Position numbers and translations under genes: made by a program. Under the pieces are notes generated by a model that worked only from the letters and a program-made list of their open reading frames with translations, did no database searches and had not been told where the DNA came from. From Zetaproteobacteria bacterium CG06_land_8_20_14_3_00_59_53 (GTDB taxonomy: Bacteria > Pseudomonadota > Zetaproteobacteria > Mariprofundales > Mariprofundaceae): 64,000 nt of DNA. Where the stretch lies: positions 1-64,000 of the forward strand of contig PEWE01000006.1 in the NCBI GenBank assembly GCA_002779605.1, given 5' to 3'. Shown here piece by piece: positions 1 through 9,262 of this stretch (the stretch's first letter is position 1; every line of letters begins with the position of its first letter).

Positions 1-123
1 TTCAACATCACTTCGGATTATGTTGCCAAAAGCGCAACATGCTTTAGCATTCGCATTAACAAAACCCGCCAAAGGCCATGCGCGCAAGTGTATCCTTGGA
101 GGGTTACTTTTTTATATGAATAA
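1..123 (+). CDS. possible C-terminal tail of an upstream gene (partial)
   Basis: Reading frame 1 is open from the window edge to a TAA at 121-123, giving a 40-residue tail rich in Arg and aromatic residues. It overlaps the preferred start of the helicase gene (116) by 8 bases, as expected of a translationally coupled upstream gene in the same operon. The helicase frame is also open to the edge, so the tail could be chance. I recognise no family. Confidence 0.25.
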   Translation, partial: FNITSDYVAKSATCFSIRINKTRQRPCAQVYPWRVTFLYE

Positions 124-3100
124 CTTGTTGCATTCCTTCACTGTTGAACTAAGAACTCTCCTGAGTTCATGGCTGCCTCAGTTATCCGCCGACTGGTGGA
201 AGCGACATGTTCTGGATATTCTGACCTATCAGCAACAAGAGCGCGTCAAACAATCACGCATTGATGATTTGTCCGGCCTCGATCTGGCTGCTTTACTGCG
301 GGTGCTCGATCAAAACTGGTACGAACTGTCTTCACAGTACAACTGGCCCAAAGAAGCGCGCAACTGGCTGAAAGAAGCGCAGACGATACGCAACCGTTGG
401 GCGCACGCCACGACTGCAGAAACCGATCCACCTGATACCTATCGCGATGCCGACACGCTTGAACGTCTGGCAAGAATGCTCGGGGTCGGCGATGCCGCAC
501 AAAGCCAAATAGCCGCTTACAAACAGCAGCAGTTGGCGCAGCTTTCACCCACCGTTTCTTCAAACCCATCGCTGCCACCTGTTGCGTCGTCCCCCGCACC
601 TGCTGTGCCTACCGTTGCAGCAGTGCCGCAAACAACGACCATCCAGGATGGATTTTCACCGGGCCAGTTAGTGCGCCTGAAATCGAACCACACCAAGATT
701 TTCCCAATCCTCTCGGTGCAGCCAAATTCGGGCGGCGAGTGCCGCTACTCGGTTTTCGAGGATGGCAAGCCAACGAATTATTATGCAAGCCAACTCGAAG
801 CCAACCCCACGTCCGTGGATGAGCGAACCACACTCGCACTGGCAGAATTTCATGCGCGCATCACCGCGCTGCTGTTGACTGCGCCGTCTGCCGCCAACCT
901 CTACTCCTTGCACTCAGGGCGGGTGCGCTTCGTGCCTTACCAGTATCGCCCCGTGCTCAAGCTGCTGCGCGCGGATCGTCCGCGCTTGCTGATTGCCGAT
1001 GATGTTGGCGTTGGCAAGACGATCGAGGCGGGGTTGATCCTGAAAGAGTTGCAAGCCCGCTCCGAAATTAAATCGGTGCTGATCATATGCCCCAAACCGC
1101 TGGTGGCAGAAGGCAAGTGGCGTAGCGAGATGAAGCGTTTCGGCGAAGAGTTCACCCATCTCGACGGTGATACCTTGCGCCACTGCTTACACGAAACCGA
1201 CCTCGATGGAGAATGGCCGCGCCAACACAGTCGCACCATTCTGCCGTTCTCTCTGTTTGACGATACCTTGCTCAATGGCAAACCGCATAAACGCGGCAAG
1301 AAAACCAAAGGGCTGTTCGATCTCGACCCGCCACCGCGCTTCGATCTGGTCATCGTGGATGAGGCGCACCACATTCGCAACGCAAATACATGGCTACACC
1401 AAGGCGTAAAGTTTTTCTGCGACCACGCCGAGGCAGTGGTTTTTATGACCGCCACTCCCATCCAGATGGGCAATCAGGATTTGTTCACCCTGCTCAATGT
1501 GCTGCGCCCTGACCTGGTGATAGATAAACCCAGCTTTGAATTCATGGCCGAGCCCAATCCGCATATCCACGCTGCGGCGAACCATCTGCGCTCTGCGGCA
1601 GCAGATAGCCAGCAACAGGCAGTAGCGGAATTGAAGGCTGCGGCAGGGACATTTGCTTTCATTGAAACCCCCGATTTTCAGCGTGTACTGGATACGTTGG
1701 TCGAGCCGGAAATTAGCCCTACCACACGAGTTGCATTGATTCGGGAAATCGAGCGATTTTCTACTTTTGATAGCCTCATCAATCGCACACGGCGGCGCGA
1801 CATCGGCAACTTCACTACACGCAAACCGGAAACCGTCTCTGTCCCATTCACCGATGCCCAGCGTGTTTTTCACGACCAGTTAATTGACACAGCAGCACGG
1901 ATATTCGCGCAAAATCATGGGCGGACTGCCGTGCTGTTCATGCTCTCCACCCTGCGGAGACAGGCGGCCAGTTGCCTCTACGCGCTGGCTCCGTTTATAG
2001 ACCAATGGCTGGATGGCAAGCTGGACGATCTTGGTCTGGCTGAAATCAATGACGACGAAACGGACGATGTGGAAGTATTGCCGCCGGGCAGCTTGCAGGC
2101 TGATATTGAACAACTGCGACAAGCCGCAAGGATGCTCGATCCCGCCGACCCCAAGCTGGATGCCTTCCTCACCATCGTCCGCGACAAACAAGCACTGCCT
2201 AACAACAAACTGCTGGTGTTCACCAGTTTTCGCCACACCTTGTTTTATCTGGAGCGGAATCTGCTTGCGGCAGGCACCCGCGTTGGTGTGATCCACGGCG
2301 GAGTGGCGGACGAAGACCGCCGCGACATCCGCCAACGCTTTGCCCAAGCCAAGGAGCAGACAGATACGCTGGACGTGTTGCTCTCCACGGAAGTTGGCAG
2401 CGAAGGCCTGGACTTCCAGTTTTGCGATGGCATGGTCAACTACGATTTGCCATGGAACCCGATGCGCATCGAACAACGTATCGGGCGCATAGACCGTTAC
2501 GGGCAAAAAAGCGAAGTGGTGGTCATCAACAACCTCATCACCCCCGGCACGGTGGATGCCGACATCTACGAACGCTGCCTGTTGCGCATCGGCGTATTCC
2601 AGCAAGCGCTGGGCGCGAGCGAGGAAATCCTCGGCCAGATCAGCAAAGAACTGCGCGCCATTTCCGAGAGCTTTGACCTGACTCCGCAACAACGGCAAGA
2701 GCGGCTGCAACAACTGGCGGACAACGAACTGCGCGAGATTCAGGAGCAGGAAGCATTAGAAAGCCGTGCCACTGAACTGTTCGGTTTGAGTCTGCCCAAT
2801 GACGACGACTTGACTACCCCGACCAGCGGCTGGCTCACGCCGGAAGCACTGCAATCAACAGCCAGACTTTACCTGCGTGACCGTTTTAGCAAAGAGCAGG
2901 AAGTTATGCTCGGCAATCAAGCCCTCAAAACTTTACGGCTGGATGCCGATGCGCGCACCCGTCTGCTGGAGGATTTTCAGAAACTGAAAGCCGACAATCA
3001 GGAGGCGAGAGCTTGGGAACGCTGGCTCAAAGGAAATACGCCGCACATCGAGATCACCTTCGATCAGGATTGCGCAAGCGATAATCCAAAAGCTGCGTTG

Positions 3101-3673
3101 CTGCACCCCGCCCATCCGCTGCTGCGCCAAGCTGCCTTACACCTGCAACCACGTCAGCCGATTTATGTCCAGTGTCGGGTACAGTCGGAGGAACTGGCAG
3201 CGGGGGTATATCCATTCGCACTTTACCAATGGCACAAACAAGGCGTGCGCGCCGATTGCGAACTGGTAGCTGTGGCAGAATCGCCAGAAATCGAAGCGAA
3301 GCTATTCTCCTTGTTGCATGACGCGCTTCCGGTAGAGGAAAGCGCACTGCCCGCGCAAGCCGTGTTCGATCCACTCGAATCCCGCCACCATCAGCGCTGG
3401 CGCGACACGCTCGCCAATCACAAGGAAGCCAACCAGCAGTTGGTTGATTACCGTCTGAACAGTCTGACCGCCAGCACCAAGGCGCGATTGCGGCAAGTAA
3501 AAGACCAGTTAGGCAAGGCCACGGATGAGAAAATACGTATCATGAAACAGGCGGAATTAGACCGTATCAAGGCCGACTATTCCCGGCGGAAGGAAAAGCT
3601 GGAAGCAGCCAAGGAAACGGCAGATATTCGTGCTGAGGCGGTGGCGTTTGGGGTGGTGGAGGTGACGGGATGA
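116..3673 (+). CDS. HEPN (Swt1-type) domain fused to SNF2-family helicase
   Basis: The start is placed at ATG 116 because GGAGGG lies at 98-103; an ATG at 20 is in frame but has no ribosome site. The product is 1185 residues. Residues about 1-125 resemble Swt1-type HEPN domains and carry the RX4H motif RNRWAH (from residue 92), the catalytic signature of HEPN ribonucleases. A Pro/Ala/Val linker follows. An SNF2-type helicase core then shows motif I DDVGVGKT (about 295), motif II DEAH (about 414), motif III TATP and motif VI QRIGRIDRYGQ (about 785). The C-terminus is charged and probably coiled coil. It overlaps the next gene by ATGA. Helicase assignment is strong; a role in phage defence is inference from the domain mix. 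Confidence 0.85.
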   Translation: MNNLLHSFTVELRTLLSSWLPQLSADWWKRHVLDILTYQQQERVKQSRIDDLSGLDLAALLRVLDQNWYELSSQYNWPKEARNWLKEAQTIRNRWAHATTAETDPPDTYRDADTLERLARMLGVGDAAQSQIAAYKQQQLAQLSPTVSSNPSLPPVASSPAPAVPTVAAVPQTTTIQDGFSPGQLVRLKSNHTKIFPILSVQPNSGGECRYSVFEDGKPTNYYASQLEANPTSVDERTTLALAEFHARITALLLTAPSAANLYSLHSGRVRFVPYQYRPVLKLLRADRPRLLIADDVGVGKTIEAGLILKELQARSEIKSVLIICPKPLVAEGKWRSEMKRFGEEFTHLDGDTLRHCLHETDLDGEWPRQHSRTILPFSLFDDTLLNGKPHKRGKKTKGLFDLDPPPRFDLVIVDEAHHIRNANTWLHQGVKFFCDHAEAVVFMTATPIQMGNQDLFTLLNVLRPDLVIDKPSFEFMAEPNPHIHAAANHLRSAAADSQQQAVAELKAAAGTFAFIETPDFQRVLDTLVEPEISPTTRVALIREIERFSTFDSLINRTRRRDIGNFTTRKPETVSVPFTDAQRVFHDQLIDTAARIFAQNHGRTAVLFMLSTLRRQAASCLYALAPFIDQWLDGKLDDLGLAEINDDETDDVEVLPPGSLQADIEQLRQAARMLDPADPKLDAFLTIVRDKQALPNNKLLVFTSFRHTLFYLERNLLAAGTRVGVIHGGVADEDRRDIRQRFAQAKEQTDTLDVLLSTEVGSEGLDFQFCDGMVNYDLPWNPMRIEQRIGRIDRYGQKSEVVVINNLITPGTVDADIYERCLLRIGVFQQALGASEEILGQISKELRAISESFDLTPQQRQERLQQLADNELREIQEQEALESRATELFGLSLPNDDDLTTPTSGWLTPEALQSTARLYLRDRFSKEQEVMLGNQALKTLRLDADARTRLLEDFQKLKADNQEARAWERWLKGNTPHIEITFDQDCASDNPKAALLHPAHPLLRQAALHLQPRQPIYVQCRVQSEELAAGVYPFALYQWHKQGVRADCELVAVAESPEIEAKLFSLLHDALPVEESALPAQAVFDPLESRHHQRWRDTLANHKEANQQLVDYRLNSLTASTKARLRQVKDQLGKATDEKIRIMKQAELDRIKADYSRRKEKLEAAKETADIRAEAVAFGVVEVTG

Positions 3674-6600
3674 GCACGGACTATGAGGCGATACGTCAAA
3701 AGAATATCAAGGAGTACGGCGAAGGATCACGCCACCTCTCTTACTTCGCCGACATCTATTCGACCCGCACCCACTTCATTTTCGAGGTGCTGCAAAATGC
3801 TGAGGACGCGCTGTCGCGTCGGCCAGCAGGTAGCGATGCCGGTTATGTACATTTCCACCTGCACTTGGATCGTTTGGAAATTCGCCACAACGGCGCTCCG
3901 TTCAATGAACTCAATGTAACCGGCATCTGCGGTATTGGTGAAGGCACAAAATCAGGGGATTTCACACAGATTGGAAAATTTGGCATCGGTTTCAAGTCGG
4001 TATATGCCTATACATTCTTCCCGAAAATTCACTCTGGTGGCGAGCATTTCGAGATACGGCGTTTTGTCGAACCCCACGCCATTACCTGCGTGAACGACAA
4101 AGACACTCTGATAGTTTTGCCCTTCGATCAACTCGATAAAAGACCTGCGTGGGCTTTCAGGGAATATGTATCTGTCGCAGACGCTGTGCGCGAAATTGGC
4201 GATGCCATCCGTACACTTGGCATCCGCACCCTGCTATTTTTGCGGCATATCGAAGAAATCAAATGGACATTACCGGATGGCACGGCAGGGCAGTTCGTCA
4301 GAAACTCCGAGCAGATCGCAAATCGTGATGGACTGCGCAAAGTTGAAGTCCTCGATCAAAACGATCTCTTTGAAGAGTGGCGAATATTTGCGCGGGATGC
4401 CGTAGTACAAGACGCTGGGCAATCTCACCAAGTCACGGTTGAAATTGCTTTTCTCATTAAGAACGGAGCAGTAACCAGAGCGGACAACACGGAGTTGATC
4501 GTTTTCTTCCCGACAGAAAAGAAAACCGAATTAGGCTTTCTCATTCAGGCTCCATTCAAGGCGACCAAGGCACGTGACAACATCAAGGCCGACGATTCGG
4601 CTAACCGCCAGTTGATTGAAGCTGCAGCACAACTCGCAGCCGGTAGCCTATTAGTCTTGCGCGACCTTGGTTTGCTGAATGTCGCCAGCTATGCAGCACT
4701 ACCATTGCGGGCGCAAGATTTTTCAGAAGGTAGTCTGTTCCGCCCAGTGTATGACAAGGTGCGCGAAGCACTCAAAACCCAGCAACTCCTGCTCGCAGAG
4801 AGGGGCAGTTTCATCAAGGCGGATGAGGCCAAGCTGGCACGCGGTGAAGATTTGGTGAAGCTGTTTTCGCCTGAGCGTGGCATTTCGCCGGAACAACTTG
4901 GCATGCTGTTTGGCAAGGCAAAATTGGCGTGGCTGGATAAAAACATCACCAATGACAACTACCCGGATTTGTACGCATATATAGTCGGTCTTGCTGATGG
5001 GGTGCAGGTTACTCCTGAAGCATTCGCTCCAAAACTGACCGCTGATTTTCTAGTTAAGCAGTCGATAGACTGGTTAACCAGATTCATTCAATACGCAATG
5101 CAAGGTGCGCAATCGCTCAGAAAAGTGCCTTTTATCCGTCTTGTATCTGGCGGTCATGTTTCTCTACCAGCAGACAAGAATGTGCTGCCATCGGCATGGT
5201 TCGCACCCAAGGAGAGCGCTGGTCTAGATTTGTCCGAATTTCCGCTGGTTTTCTCAGAACTGGCTGCGAATGAATCGATCAGGAAGCTTCTGGAAAAAGA
5301 AGGCATCCGCGAAATTGATGCAGCGGCAATAGTCGGGCAGTGCATCTTGCCGCTATACAGCGGCGTGGGCACGCCTTTCGATGAACCCAGCTACCGTGGT
5401 CACCTGCGCCAAATTCGCAAGGCATACACCGAAGCCAATGAGGCGGCAAAAAAACAACTCACCACAAACTTGGATGGTGCTGCATGGGTGGCTTGTATTC
5501 ATGCCAGCGGCAACGCGCCGGATAAAATAGTTTGGAAAAAGCCGGGGCCATCCGATGTATTTATGAGGACTAACGATCATGAAATTTGGTTTCATGGGTT
5601 GGACAGTGTGGGTGCGTATTTTCTGCACCCGTCTGTAATTAATGAACTCAATGGTTTCGTCTCTAACTTGGTCAAACCCGCTACCGCACTGACTCAGAAT
5701 CTGCACTCGTCTGAATACACCGTAAGCTTGTGTAACGAAAGCTATGGGAATCACAAGCAAGGGTTGAACGGGTTCAAGCCGGACGCAACGGTTGCTGGCC
5801 TGCAATCTGCGCTTGTTAATTGGAACAAAGAGAGAGCCATCATTCTCTGGAACATCATGTTATCCGGTCCTCGTATTATCAGTGGTGAAATACAACAGTC
5901 ATCCAACCGCCAGAGACTGGATGCTGCCAAGAAGGAACTCAAATATACCGATGTTGGAAAACTATGCAGTGAACGCGATTGGCTGCCAGATCAAGCTGGC
6001 AACTTCCGCAAACCTAACGAACTTTTTCTGACCGACTTGCCGGAAGGGTTTGGCGCATCCTCTATTCGCGCCAAGGAGGTAGCAGAAAAACTGGGAATAA
6101 GAAAACCTGAAGTCGAACAGGCAGCAGAAACATTGTCCAAAGGCGATCCACGCAAAAAATTTTTACTTGAACAAATCGCTAATGCCTCTGATGATGATCT
6201 CGACAAGTATGAGGAGCTTGTGCCGAGAACCGTTCCGCCTATGCCTGCGCCATCTTTCAAAGACGGCCTCGAAAACATGACAAGGCAACAGCGAGGCATG
6301 CCACTTGATGACGAGAGCTTCCCTCGCTCTTACCCAGTTTCCAAACCTGACTACCGCCAAGAGAATCTTAATCAGGCAGTTGCTGATGGAGTACAGAAAC
6401 ACGCGAGTTCACCGAGAACCATTAGCTTTTCTCCTTTACGAGATCAGCCGTCTAACAAGGACGCACGCCAAACTCTTTACCAAGAATATCAAGGGCGTTG
6501 TCAGGTAACAGGAGAGACATTTCAAAAAGCATCGGCCAGTGCCAATGGCGAGGCAGCAAACTACTTCGAGGTGTGCAGCCTGCTTCCCTACGGCAATGCC

Positions 6601-6837
6601 GACTATCTCAACGATGCGGGCAATATGCTCTGTGTCAGTGCTGACACGATGGCCAAGCTGAATCACGCCAGTTTCGAGTGGCTGGACGACATCGAGCACA
6701 AGATTGCGGAATTCGATAACGGCGGGAAAAGGGCTCAGGAAATTAAGATACGCATTCGTCTGGCTGGCGAAGAATGCACCATCACATGGAGTCAGCGGCA
6801 TTTTATGCAACTGGTTGCGTTGTATCAAAAGGCTTGA
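3670..6837 (+). CDS. sacsin-type GHKL ATPase with degenerate HNH-like C-terminus
   Basis: This 1055-residue protein starts inside the helicase stop codon (ATGA), so the two are probably translated together. Residues about 15-200 form a GHKL/HSP90-like ATPase of the sacsin type: the N-box reads FEVLQNAEDA (about 38), the G1 box is HNGAPF where many GHKL proteins have an Asp, and the G2 box is GKFGIGFKS (about 102). The long middle is unassigned. The last 130 residues resemble an HNH/treble-clef nuclease: RCQVTGETF, then a YFEVCSLLPY segment and GNMLCVS, but with Cys and Leu where metal-binding His would be expected. Such large ATPases are common in bacterial conflict operons; the actual function is unknown. 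Confidence 0.75.
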   Translation: MSTDYEAIRQKNIKEYGEGSRHLSYFADIYSTRTHFIFEVLQNAEDALSRRPAGSDAGYVHFHLHLDRLEIRHNGAPFNELNVTGICGIGEGTKSGDFTQIGKFGIGFKSVYAYTFFPKIHSGGEHFEIRRFVEPHAITCVNDKDTLIVLPFDQLDKRPAWAFREYVSVADAVREIGDAIRTLGIRTLLFLRHIEEIKWTLPDGTAGQFVRNSEQIANRDGLRKVEVLDQNDLFEEWRIFARDAVVQDAGQSHQVTVEIAFLIKNGAVTRADNTELIVFFPTEKKTELGFLIQAPFKATKARDNIKADDSANRQLIEAAAQLAAGSLLVLRDLGLLNVASYAALPLRAQDFSEGSLFRPVYDKVREALKTQQLLLAERGSFIKADEAKLARGEDLVKLFSPERGISPEQLGMLFGKAKLAWLDKNITNDNYPDLYAYIVGLADGVQVTPEAFAPKLTADFLVKQSIDWLTRFIQYAMQGAQSLRKVPFIRLVSGGHVSLPADKNVLPSAWFAPKESAGLDLSEFPLVFSELAANESIRKLLEKEGIREIDAAAIVGQCILPLYSGVGTPFDEPSYRGHLRQIRKAYTEANEAAKKQLTTNLDGAAWVACIHASGNAPDKIVWKKPGPSDVFMRTNDHEIWFHGLDSVGAYFLHPSVINELNGFVSNLVKPATALTQNLHSSEYTVSLCNESYGNHKQGLNGFKPDATVAGLQSALVNWNKERAIILWNIMLSGPRIISGEIQQSSNRQRLDAAKKELKYTDVGKLCSERDWLPDQAGNFRKPNELFLTDLPEGFGASSIRAKEVAEKLGIRKPEVEQAAETLSKGDPRKKFLLEQIANASDDDLDKYEELVPRTVPPMPAPSFKDGLENMTRQQRGMPLDDESFPRSYPVSKPDYRQENLNQAVADGVQKHASSPRTISFSPLRDQPSNKDARQTLYQEYQGRCQVTGETFQKASASANGEAANYFEVCSLLPYGNADYLNDAGNMLCVSADTMAKLNHASFEWLDDIEHKIAEFDNGGKRAQEIKIRIRLAGEECTITWSQRHFMQLVALYQKA

Positions 6838-7200: not shown

Positions 7201-7371
7201 TTACGGTCGTGAAAGATCGATGATCTTGCGGATGTCGTAGTCTTTGGAGCCACCGTCCTGGGTGACGAGGTCGGCCATGATGGTATCGAGTGTGGGGCGG
7301 TGGGTTTTGTAGAGCAGTCCGACCGGTTCCTTGTCCTTGAAGCGGTAGATTAGGCGCATGGTTTTGCGCAC
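7201..7371 (-). pseudogene. 3' remnant of a gene, resembling 2-oxoacid:ferredoxin oxidoreductase beta C-terminus
   Basis: The minus strand codes for about 52 residues beginning MRLIYRFKDKEP and containing VGLLYKTHRPTL, ending at a TAA (7201-7203). This looks like the conserved C-terminal tail of a 2-oxoacid:ferredoxin oxidoreductase beta subunit (KorB-like), judged from memory of the family. The frame is not supported upstream of the G10 run, and lepA begins only 57 bases beyond it on the other strand, so the body of the gene is missing. Confidence 0.4.
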
Positions 7372-7381
7372 GGGGGGGGGG
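7372..7381. repeat. run of ten G
   Basis: Ten consecutive G residues sit at the broken end of the gene remnant. Such a tract is prone to slippage, and may also mark an assembly or sequencing weak point. Confidence 0.8.
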
Positions 7382-7438
7382 ACAGTGCGCGTGGATACTA
7401 TTGGCAGATAAGCGGGCGCACCGCTACACTGCCGCCCG

Positions 7439-9262
7439 ATGATTGAACTCGACGCCCAACAGAAAACCCGAAATTTTTCCATTATTGCCCATATCGACCA
7501 TGGCAAGTCCACCCTTGCCGATCGTCTGATCGAGGAGACCGGCGCGCTGGCCGAACGCCAGATGAAGAAGCAGGTGCTCGATTCGATGGATCTGGAGCAG
7601 GAGCGCGGCATCACCATCAAGGCGCAGACCGCGACCCTGCAGTACCCGGCCAAAGACGGCACGATCTACACCTTCAACCTGATCGATACCCCCGGGCATG
7701 TGGACTTTTCCTATGAGGTATCGCGCTCGCTGCAAGCCTGCGAAGGCGCGCTGCTGATCGTGGATGCCACGCAGGGCGTGGAAGCGCAGACGCTGGCCAA
7801 TGTGTATCTGGCGCTGGAAAACAATCTGGAAATCATTCCGGTCATTAATAAAATCGACCTGCCGAGTGCCGATATCGAGGAAGCCAAACGGCAGATCGAG
7901 GATGTTATCGGGCTGGATGCATCCGATGCGATCGCCGTATCCGCCAAGACCGGTGTGGGCATCAAGGATGTGCTGGAGGCCATCGCACTGCGCATCCCGC
8001 CGCCGAAGAATCACAATGAGCGGCCGCTGCGCGCGCTGGTCGTGGATTCGTGGTTCGATTCCTATGTGGGTGCTGTGGCGCTGGTGCGTGTGTTCGATGG
8101 TGTGATGAAGAAGGGCGACCGTATCCGCCTGATGTCCATGACCACGACCGCCGCGTATGAAATTCAGGATGTGGGCGTGTTTCTGCCGGCCCCGTTCTCC
8201 GTGCCGCAGTTGGCTTCCGGTTGTGTGGGATTCATGGTGGCCGGCATCAAGCAGCTGGCCGATCTGAAGGTGGGCGATACCGTCACCCTGCTGCGCAATC
8301 CCGCCGAGAAGCCGCTGCCGGGTTATCGTGAACCGCAGCCGATGGTGTTCTCCGGGCTCTATCCGGTGGATTCGGCCGATTATGCCGACTTGCGCGATTC
8401 GCTTGAAAAACTGCATCTGAACGACCCGGCCTTCACCTTCGAGCCGGAGAACTCCTCGGCTTTGGGCCTTGGCTTCCGCTGCGGATTCCTGGGCATGCTG
8501 CATATGGAGATCGTGCAGGAGCGTCTGGAGCGCGAATACAATCAGAATCTGATCACCACAGCGCCCAGCGTGATCTATCGCATGACGCTCACCAACGGCA
8601 CCAAACTGGAAACCTCCAACCCCAGCGAGTTTCCCGACCCGGTGACCATCGAGCTCATCGAGGAACCGATGGTGACGGCGAATATTTTCATGCCGGAAGA
8701 GTTTGTCGGCGCGATGATGAAGCTCTGCCAGACAAGGCGCGGCACACAGCAGGACATGAAGTTCATCGGTCAGGGTCGCGTGATGCTGACCTATGCACTG
8801 CCGCTGGCTGAAATGGTCATCGATTTTTACGACAAGCTGAAATCCCTTTCGCGTGGTTATGCCTCGATGGATTACGAGCTCTCCGAGTTCATGGCCAGTG
8901 ATGTGGTGAAGCTCGATGTGCTGGTGCATGCGGAGCCTGTGGATGCGCTTTCGCTGATCGTGCATCGCTCGATCGCCGAGTCGCGTGGCCGCGAACTGGT
9001 GAAGAAGTTGCGCGAACTGATCCCGAGGCAGCAGTTCGATGTTCCCTTGCAGGCGGCAATCGGCGGCCGTATCTTGGCCCGCGAGACGGTGAAAGCCGTG
9101 CGCAAGAATGTGACCGCCAAGTGCTACGGCGGCGATATCACACGAAAACGCAAATTGCTGGAGAAACAGAAAGCCGGCAAGAAGCGCATGAAGTCCATCG
9201 GTAGCGTGGAGGTGCCTCAGGAGGCATTCCTTGCGGTGCTCAGGCTGGGTGAGGAGAGCTAG
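7439..9262 (+). CDS. lepA: elongation factor 4 (LepA), ribosome back-translocase GTPase
   Basis: The 607-residue product is close to the family's usual length of about 600. The G domain shows AHIDHGKST (G1, residues 17-25), DTPGH (G3) and NKIDLP (G4), and the EF-4-specific C-terminal part is intact ([15 protein letters not shown], then a Lys-rich end). EF-4 binds stalled or mis-translocated ribosomes at the inner membrane. It is the first gene of a long overlapping operon; its stop codon shares one base with the lepB start. No strong ribosome site precedes ATG 7439. Confidence 0.97.

Follow-up and report, generated by a model that had tools for sequence, protein, structure and literature searches.

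The window, which is the whole stretch of 64,000 nucleotides that was analysed, has its first base at base 1 of contig C9 in a 2.37-Mb genome of 33 contigs, so that the side upstream of the first gene, P1, is unassembled. The first-pass annotation had described two genes with an ATGA overlap. This layout was borne out, as P1 stops at position 3673 and the ATG of the second gene, P2, lies at 3670. The following features were assigned:

98-103, plus strand: putative Shine-Dalgarno sequence GGAGGG, 12 nt ahead of the ATG at 116 (sequence reading)
116-3673, plus strand: P1, a HEPN(Swt1)-Tudor/KOW-like-SNF2 helicase of 1185 aa (open reading frame, domain matches, alignment)
176-481, plus strand: HEPN_Swt1 domain, PF18731 (Pfam, E = 7e-13)
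389-406, plus strand: HEPN RNase motif RNRWAH, of the form R-x4-H (alignment of 11 homologues)
656-796, plus strand: probable small beta-rich Tudor/KOW-like segment ahead of the helicase (alignments, and the BrxHII/RapA architecture in PMC12839542)
980-2503, plus strand: SNF2 two-lobe ATPase motor with intact motifs (Pfam, alignment)
3670-3673, plus strand: ATGA, in which the P1 stop and the P2 start codons overlap (sequence)
3670-6837, plus strand: P2, a sacsin/Hsp90-like ATPase of 1055 aa with a degenerate HNH-like C-terminus (open reading frame, profiles, model)
3739-4659, plus strand: GHKL/sacsin ATPase domain, with N-box E39xxxN43xxD46 and with HNG in place of the DxGxG box (profiles, alignment)
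6487-6684, plus strand: HNH-like domain related to McrA, TagI, and Cap5, with metal ligands 2-4 and the catalytic His lost (family profile, fold search, alignment)
7202-7370, minus strand: korB remnant, the 3′ end of the gene for a 2-oxoacid:ferredoxin oxidoreductase beta subunit (alignment to a same-genus genome)
7371-7398, no strand: G-rich deletion junction between the korB 3′ end and the lepA promoter region (comparison with the same-genus genome)

The N-terminal domain of P1 matched HEPN_Swt1 with 49.3 bits against a Pfam cut-off of 27.5, and the R, N, R, and H of its RNRWAH motif (R91, H96) were invariant in all 11 HEPN-SNF2 homologues aligned. Hence, P1 carries the R-x4-6-H signature of a Swt1-like HEPN RNase within a domain that scores above the cut-off. 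The motor was recognized by the Pfam models SNF2-rel_dom (E = 4.6e-18) and Helicase_C (6.3e-20), and its Walker A, Walker B, and motif VI sequences (GVGKT, DEAH, and QRIGRIDR) are intact and invariant in the HEPN-SNF2 alignment; the nearest solved structure is that of RapA (E = 5e-47). These data agree with the initial description of P1 as a HEPN-type domain on an SNF2 helicase. The HEPN domain was present on about one-third of the sacsin-paired SNF2 helicases, while most of the others start at the Tudor/KOW-like segment, which alignments also placed at the N-terminus of the HEPN-less relatives of P1. A search of plasmids with the HEPN N-terminus of P1 gave no match.

The description of P2 as a 1055-residue GHKL ATPase was likewise supported by profiles and by fold. 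P2 matched the SACS family (PF25794, 1.5e-14) and the NCBIfam sacsin N-terminal model (4e-22), and it has the N-box Glu, Asn, and Asp and the glycine-rich lid motif of GHKL proteins, while all 25 sequences compared have His at the position of the G1 Asp. The AlphaFold2 model of P2 (mean pLDDT 82) matched Hsp90/HtpG across about 545 columns (E = 2e-9), and also the SR1 region of sacsin; in the model, the length of this match fits the N-terminal and middle domains of Hsp90.

The C-terminus of P2 had been noted as degenerate and HNH-like, and this also held. When single C-termini of the P2 family were compared with Pfam, nothing significant was obtained for HNH, and the domain was found only by a family profile and by fold search. 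The 25-member profile matched McrA (6ghc, 1.7e-8) and also TagI (6ghs), and the top fold match of the modeled domain (pLDDT 86) was the CBASS HNH nuclease Cap5, with a probability of 1.00 but with an E-value of 0.027 and a TM-score of 0.31. The window protein reads CQVTG...YFEVCSLLP...NMLCVSADTMAK, in which three of the four metal-binding Cys and the catalytic His are gone, so that it lacks the residues of an HNH endonuclease. Most P2 relatives keep the C-x-x-C...C-x-x-C/H pair, while the His aligned with that of McrA, which we take to be catalytic there, is kept in only 3 of 25 (L022, L071, and L023). In the branch of the window protein (with L012, L014, and, as far as it is assembled, L013) the three metal ligands are lost as well, while the rest of the domain is conserved, so that the degenerate HNH is a conserved state and not a recent decay.

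To describe the genomic partners of P2, its profile was scanned against 84,980 species genomes, from which the best 80 loci were taken, and against viral contigs, which gave 13; the sample of homologues is redundant in places. The data showed that, among the matches listed, 22 of the 24 HNH-ended sacsins with usable flanks had a P1-like SNF2 gene within 5 kb. This count is the scripted 22/25, minus L016 and L021 at contig edges, plus L098, which was added by hand since the script missed its motif; the two HNH-type sacsins with no helicase are L023 and L098. In contrast, the DUF3883-ended sacsins among the matches listed had an SNF2 gene in 0/44 cases and a UvrD gene in 25/44, and the difference in SNF2 pairing between the two types was highly significant (Fisher p = 7e-14, scripted counts). 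A chance pairing of P1 and P2 was rejected by these statistics. The intergenic gap was at most 74 bp in 24 of 28 pairs, and the genes overlapped in 17 of the 28; in L027 and L052 the SNF2 gene lies downstream of the sacsin gene. A reverse search from P1 found intact HEPN-SNF2 genes independently of sacsin, and wherever the downstream sequence was present a sacsin gene came next (4/4: L119, L120, L183, and L179, where the sacsin gene has a broken frame), while in L184 and L185 the HEPN-SNF2 gene extends past the contig end. The protein distances of P1 and P2 are also correlated (Mantel r = 0.37, a value reached in 1 of 10,000 permutations). Hence, the P1-P2 pair is a real recurring unit; the SNF2-sacsin pair recurs across bacteria and, without HEPN, in an archaeon.

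The upstream side is indeed cut off, with the window at the first base of the contig, which had left room in the first-pass annotation for a larger system. The pair of a same-family genome (L008) is about 60% identical to that of the window and likewise overlaps by ATGA; it is bordered by a transporter-like gene and by a partial copy of a folC-like gene, and no further candidate gene lies there. A larger obligatory operon was considered and rejected, because any given neighbor family was common to only two to four loci and no third gene was general. The fact that the L008 pair stands alone, together with the lack of a family-wide third gene, suggests that probably no component is missing on the left, where the assembly stops. 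Thus, while the truncation is real, additional genes are unlikely to be required, and two genes appear to suffice as a unit as judged from these comparisons.

Several loci differ in their details. Direct repeats of 72 bp with 94% identity (L008 6876-6946 and 13836-13907) flank the L008 module, the right copy beginning the folC-like partial gene, and similar flanking repeats were present in L078 (160 bp), L052 (430 bp), and L027 (111 bp). A gene of 202-238 aa lies between the SNF2 and sacsin genes in three loci (L015 9314-9955, L018 8901-9509, and L020 9258-9974), and in L019 and L078 the pair is followed by a second sacsin gene.

The window pair lies beside a gene remnant, which had been read as a sign of a mobile defence island. 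The remnant is real, with 83% identity to the last 169 bp of the same-genus korB, but it derives from a deleted host gene and not from mobile-element debris. In a genome of the same genus (L105) an intact korA-korB is divergent from lepA at the corresponding place, while beside the module about 2.5 kb, comprising korA and the greater part of korB, are deleted, and korAB is otherwise absent from the window genome at the DNA level. The window genome has thus lost a 2-oxoacid:ferredoxin oxidoreductase that is retained in its congener. In L105 two identical 80-bp copies of the korB 3′ end in direct orientation (5063-5142 and 7433-7512) surround a 710-aa patatin-like gene. The duplication of the korB 3′ end around another gene at the same site makes it look like an insertion hotspot in the genus. 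In the window, where only 118 bp of left flank are available, no direct repeats were found around the pair, and neither this left flank nor the 364-bp stretch that follows P2 recurs elsewhere in the genome. The genes to the right of the module are lepA, lepB, rnc, era, and recO, as named from their translations.

The composition of the module is foreign, with a GC content of 53% versus 58% and GC3 values of 63% and 52% versus 76-77% in the surroundings. Its distribution is patchy: among 78 genomes of the class, P2 together with an SNF2 gene was present only in the window genome and in G008, while G060 has a truncated and decayed P1 without a sacsin gene.

The neighborhoods of the homologous pairs frequently contain defence genes. 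Type I restriction-modification (R-M) genes lie near the pair in L014, L071, and L119, type III R-M genes in L086, and a type I methylase/specificity gene in L057; C5-MTase/Vsr genes are close by in L052 and L101, a PLD-SNF2 gene in L095, and an RT-associated helicase in L027. In L005 the pair is near R-M genes and csa3 on the archaeal plasmid pMETHO01, and in L072 it directly precedes DISARM DrmA-DrmB. On a contig deposited as phage (L183 6441-15759) HEPN-SNF2 and sacsin genes are directly behind BREX PglX-PglZ, and the HEPN-SNF2 genes of L183 and L185 start 2-23 bp after PglZ (2 bp in L185, where the contig then ends); a scan of the other pair loci with PglX and PglZ found no homologues of these two proteins. 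About half of the inspected flanked loci adjoin R-M, DISARM, BREX, or RT genes, which is a raw rate, uncorrected for the background of random loci. The check named in the first-pass annotation, namely that the two genes recur together and close to further defence genes, was therefore borne out among the homologues (22/24 paired; about half of the inspected loci). The defence-island setting applies to these homologues but not to the window genome, where the known neighbors of the pair are housekeeping genes. The fact that the pair recurs, often inside phage-defence islands, suggests that it is probably an unnamed defence module. The closest solved relatives of the two proteins, Hsp90/sacsin and RapA, could also point to a chaperone and a RapA-like motor that act together in cellular stress or DNA repair and not against invaders. 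This is very unlikely, given the sporadic occurrence even within genus and family, the foreign base composition, the decayed G060 copy, the defence-island neighbors, and the HEPN RNase motif.

The first-pass annotation had not recognized the pair among named systems, and at curated cut-offs neither P1 nor P2 matched one (PADLOC of 2023, NCBIfam), while the DrmD and TmtA matches were only partial. The PADLOC TmtA models, which we take to represent Tiamat, have 1063 to 1782 positions. They share the GHKL/sacsin N-terminal half with P2 (E = 1e-53), which places both in the same superfamily; however, the best model aligned to P2 over positions 35-575 of 1302 (about 40%), and not over most of the profile. 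P2 also differs from TmtA in its HNH-like end and its helicase partner, and the SNF2 pairing argues against single-gene working. DISARM DrmD has an SNF2 motor like that of P1 (388 bits with the PADLOC model, 331 bits with that of NCBIfam), but P1 reaches only about half of the cut-off of 610, adds HEPN, and has a sacsin as its partner. These similarities raise the question of whether the pair could be an accessory or a variant of DISARM, BREX, or Tiamat and not a system of its own. The nearest helicases to P1 are indeed of the DrmD/RapA type, and the pair directly before DrmA-DrmB, the HEPN-SNF2 genes close behind PglZ, and the TmtA match of P2 are all consistent with such a role. On the other hand, the window genome gave no match to DrmB and only a 24-bit helicase fragment for DrmA, P1 and the sacsin-linked SNF2 proteins tested scored 300-334 bits against the DrmD cut-off of 610, and most pairs lie apart from any BREX or DISARM core, with partners that differ by locus. 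We therefore consider an accessory role unlikely.

No paper describing the pair was found in the open-licence literature. Its parts are not entirely new, as P2 falls in the TmtA superfamily and the Swt1-HEPN-SWI2/SNF2 fusion has been on record since 2013. A Swt1-like HEPN fused to an SWI2/SNF2 ATPase (WQE_15321) was recorded then as active by Anantharaman et al. (2013, PMC3710099), who also proposed, in general terms, a role for such HEPN fusions in suicide linked to R-M. Its HEPN family and helicase type are those of P1, while the passages of that article on the fusion mention neither a sacsin partner nor a two-gene unit. BREX-related and Hma systems combine a TUDOR-SNF2-type helicase with HEPN, as P1 does, but there the protein that bears HEPN is a DUF499 AAA ATPase and the core includes a methylase (PMC12839542). 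Neither a DUF499 ATPase nor a methylase was annotated beside the intact L008 pair on inspection of its open reading frames, and the words sacsin, Hsp90, and GHKL are absent from the main text of this 2026 BREX survey (PMC12839542). ArmD of ARMADA type II is, like P1, a helicase with an N-terminal RNase domain, but this domain is RelE-like, the helicase is UvrD, and the partners are different (PMC12458937). Systems of sacsin-DUF3883 with UvrD (GajB-like) and type III-like methylase/restriction genes share the ATPase core, a helicase, and a nuclease-type C-terminus with P1-P2, but have UvrD in place of SNF2, DUF3883 in place of HNH, and no HEPN. In L074, L026, and many other loci the sacsin-DUF3883 gene, the GajB-like UvrD, a type III-like methylase, and a restriction helicase form a conserved cassette, which is apparently unnamed in PADLOC 2023. 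In eukaryotic sacsin an Hsp90-like sacsin ATPase is also linked to HEPN, but within one giant protein and with a different HEPN family (PMC3710099); the co-occurrence of sacsin and HEPN there and in P1-P2 may be convergent.

Taken together, the gene content and context make it fairly probable that the pair is a self-contained, horizontally moving two-gene anti-invader module, with HEPN as its probable suicide effector. In the mechanism that we propose, the SNF2 motor of P1 would load onto and travel along invading or abnormally processed DNA and so sense the invader. The sacsin/Hsp90-type half of P2 would serve as an ATP-gated dimeric clamp and switch, which would bind via the dead HNH fold and restrain the complex. 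Upon engagement of the complex, P2 would turn over ATP and change its shape, which would free the HEPN domain of P1, and the freed HEPN would cut cellular or phage RNA, so that growth stops. The physical complex of P1 and P2, the trigger, the RNA target, and the suicidal outcome are what we infer in this scheme.

Most relatives that lack HEPN have an inactive HNH too, so HEPN cannot be a family-wide effector, and the core that all members share must have some other activity; in these relatives the DNA may be the direct target of motor and clamp, or the effect may come from a different gene. In a second explanation, the SNF2 motor and the sacsin clamp restrict at the DNA level, by blocking or degrading invading DNA or by loading host nucleases, and HEPN is a backup fuse in some lineages. 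The HEPN-less SNF2-sacsin core of archaea, Actinobacteria, Cyanobacteria, Clostridia, and others is consistent with this explanation, as are the three relatives that keep the HNH His and the intact-looking E-V-K nuclease motif of the related DUF3883-UvrD family. The HNH Asn is also lost more often in the presence of HEPN, being kept in 3 of 9 HEPN-carrying pairs versus 11 of 12 HEPN-less ones (p = 0.016, ignoring kinship), which weakly fits one nuclease, HEPN, replacing another. However, the window copy has no recognizable DNase active site in P1 or P2, and we regard DNA-level restriction as rather unlikely.

The suicide module that we favor would be a compact and testable candidate for an immune system, with two genes and intact RNase and motor motifs. 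The logic of its partners is conserved, as HNH-ended sacsin ATPases go with SNF2 and DUF3883-ended ones with UvrD. Tentatively, the pair may belong to a widespread undescribed prokaryotic immune family, in which an Hsp90/sacsin-type ATP clamp with a dead HNH sensor would gate an SNF2 motor and the HEPN RNase would be the suicide effector of one branch. Such a family would alternate between standing alone and docking in BREX, DISARM, and R-M loci, and would pair a sacsin ATPase with HEPN, which in eukaryotic sacsin are one chain. Little is understood of what Hsp90-like ATPases do in the immunity of prokaryotes, and a working example of P1-P2 would reveal their role there and could illuminate why eukaryotic sacsin has a HEPN domain.
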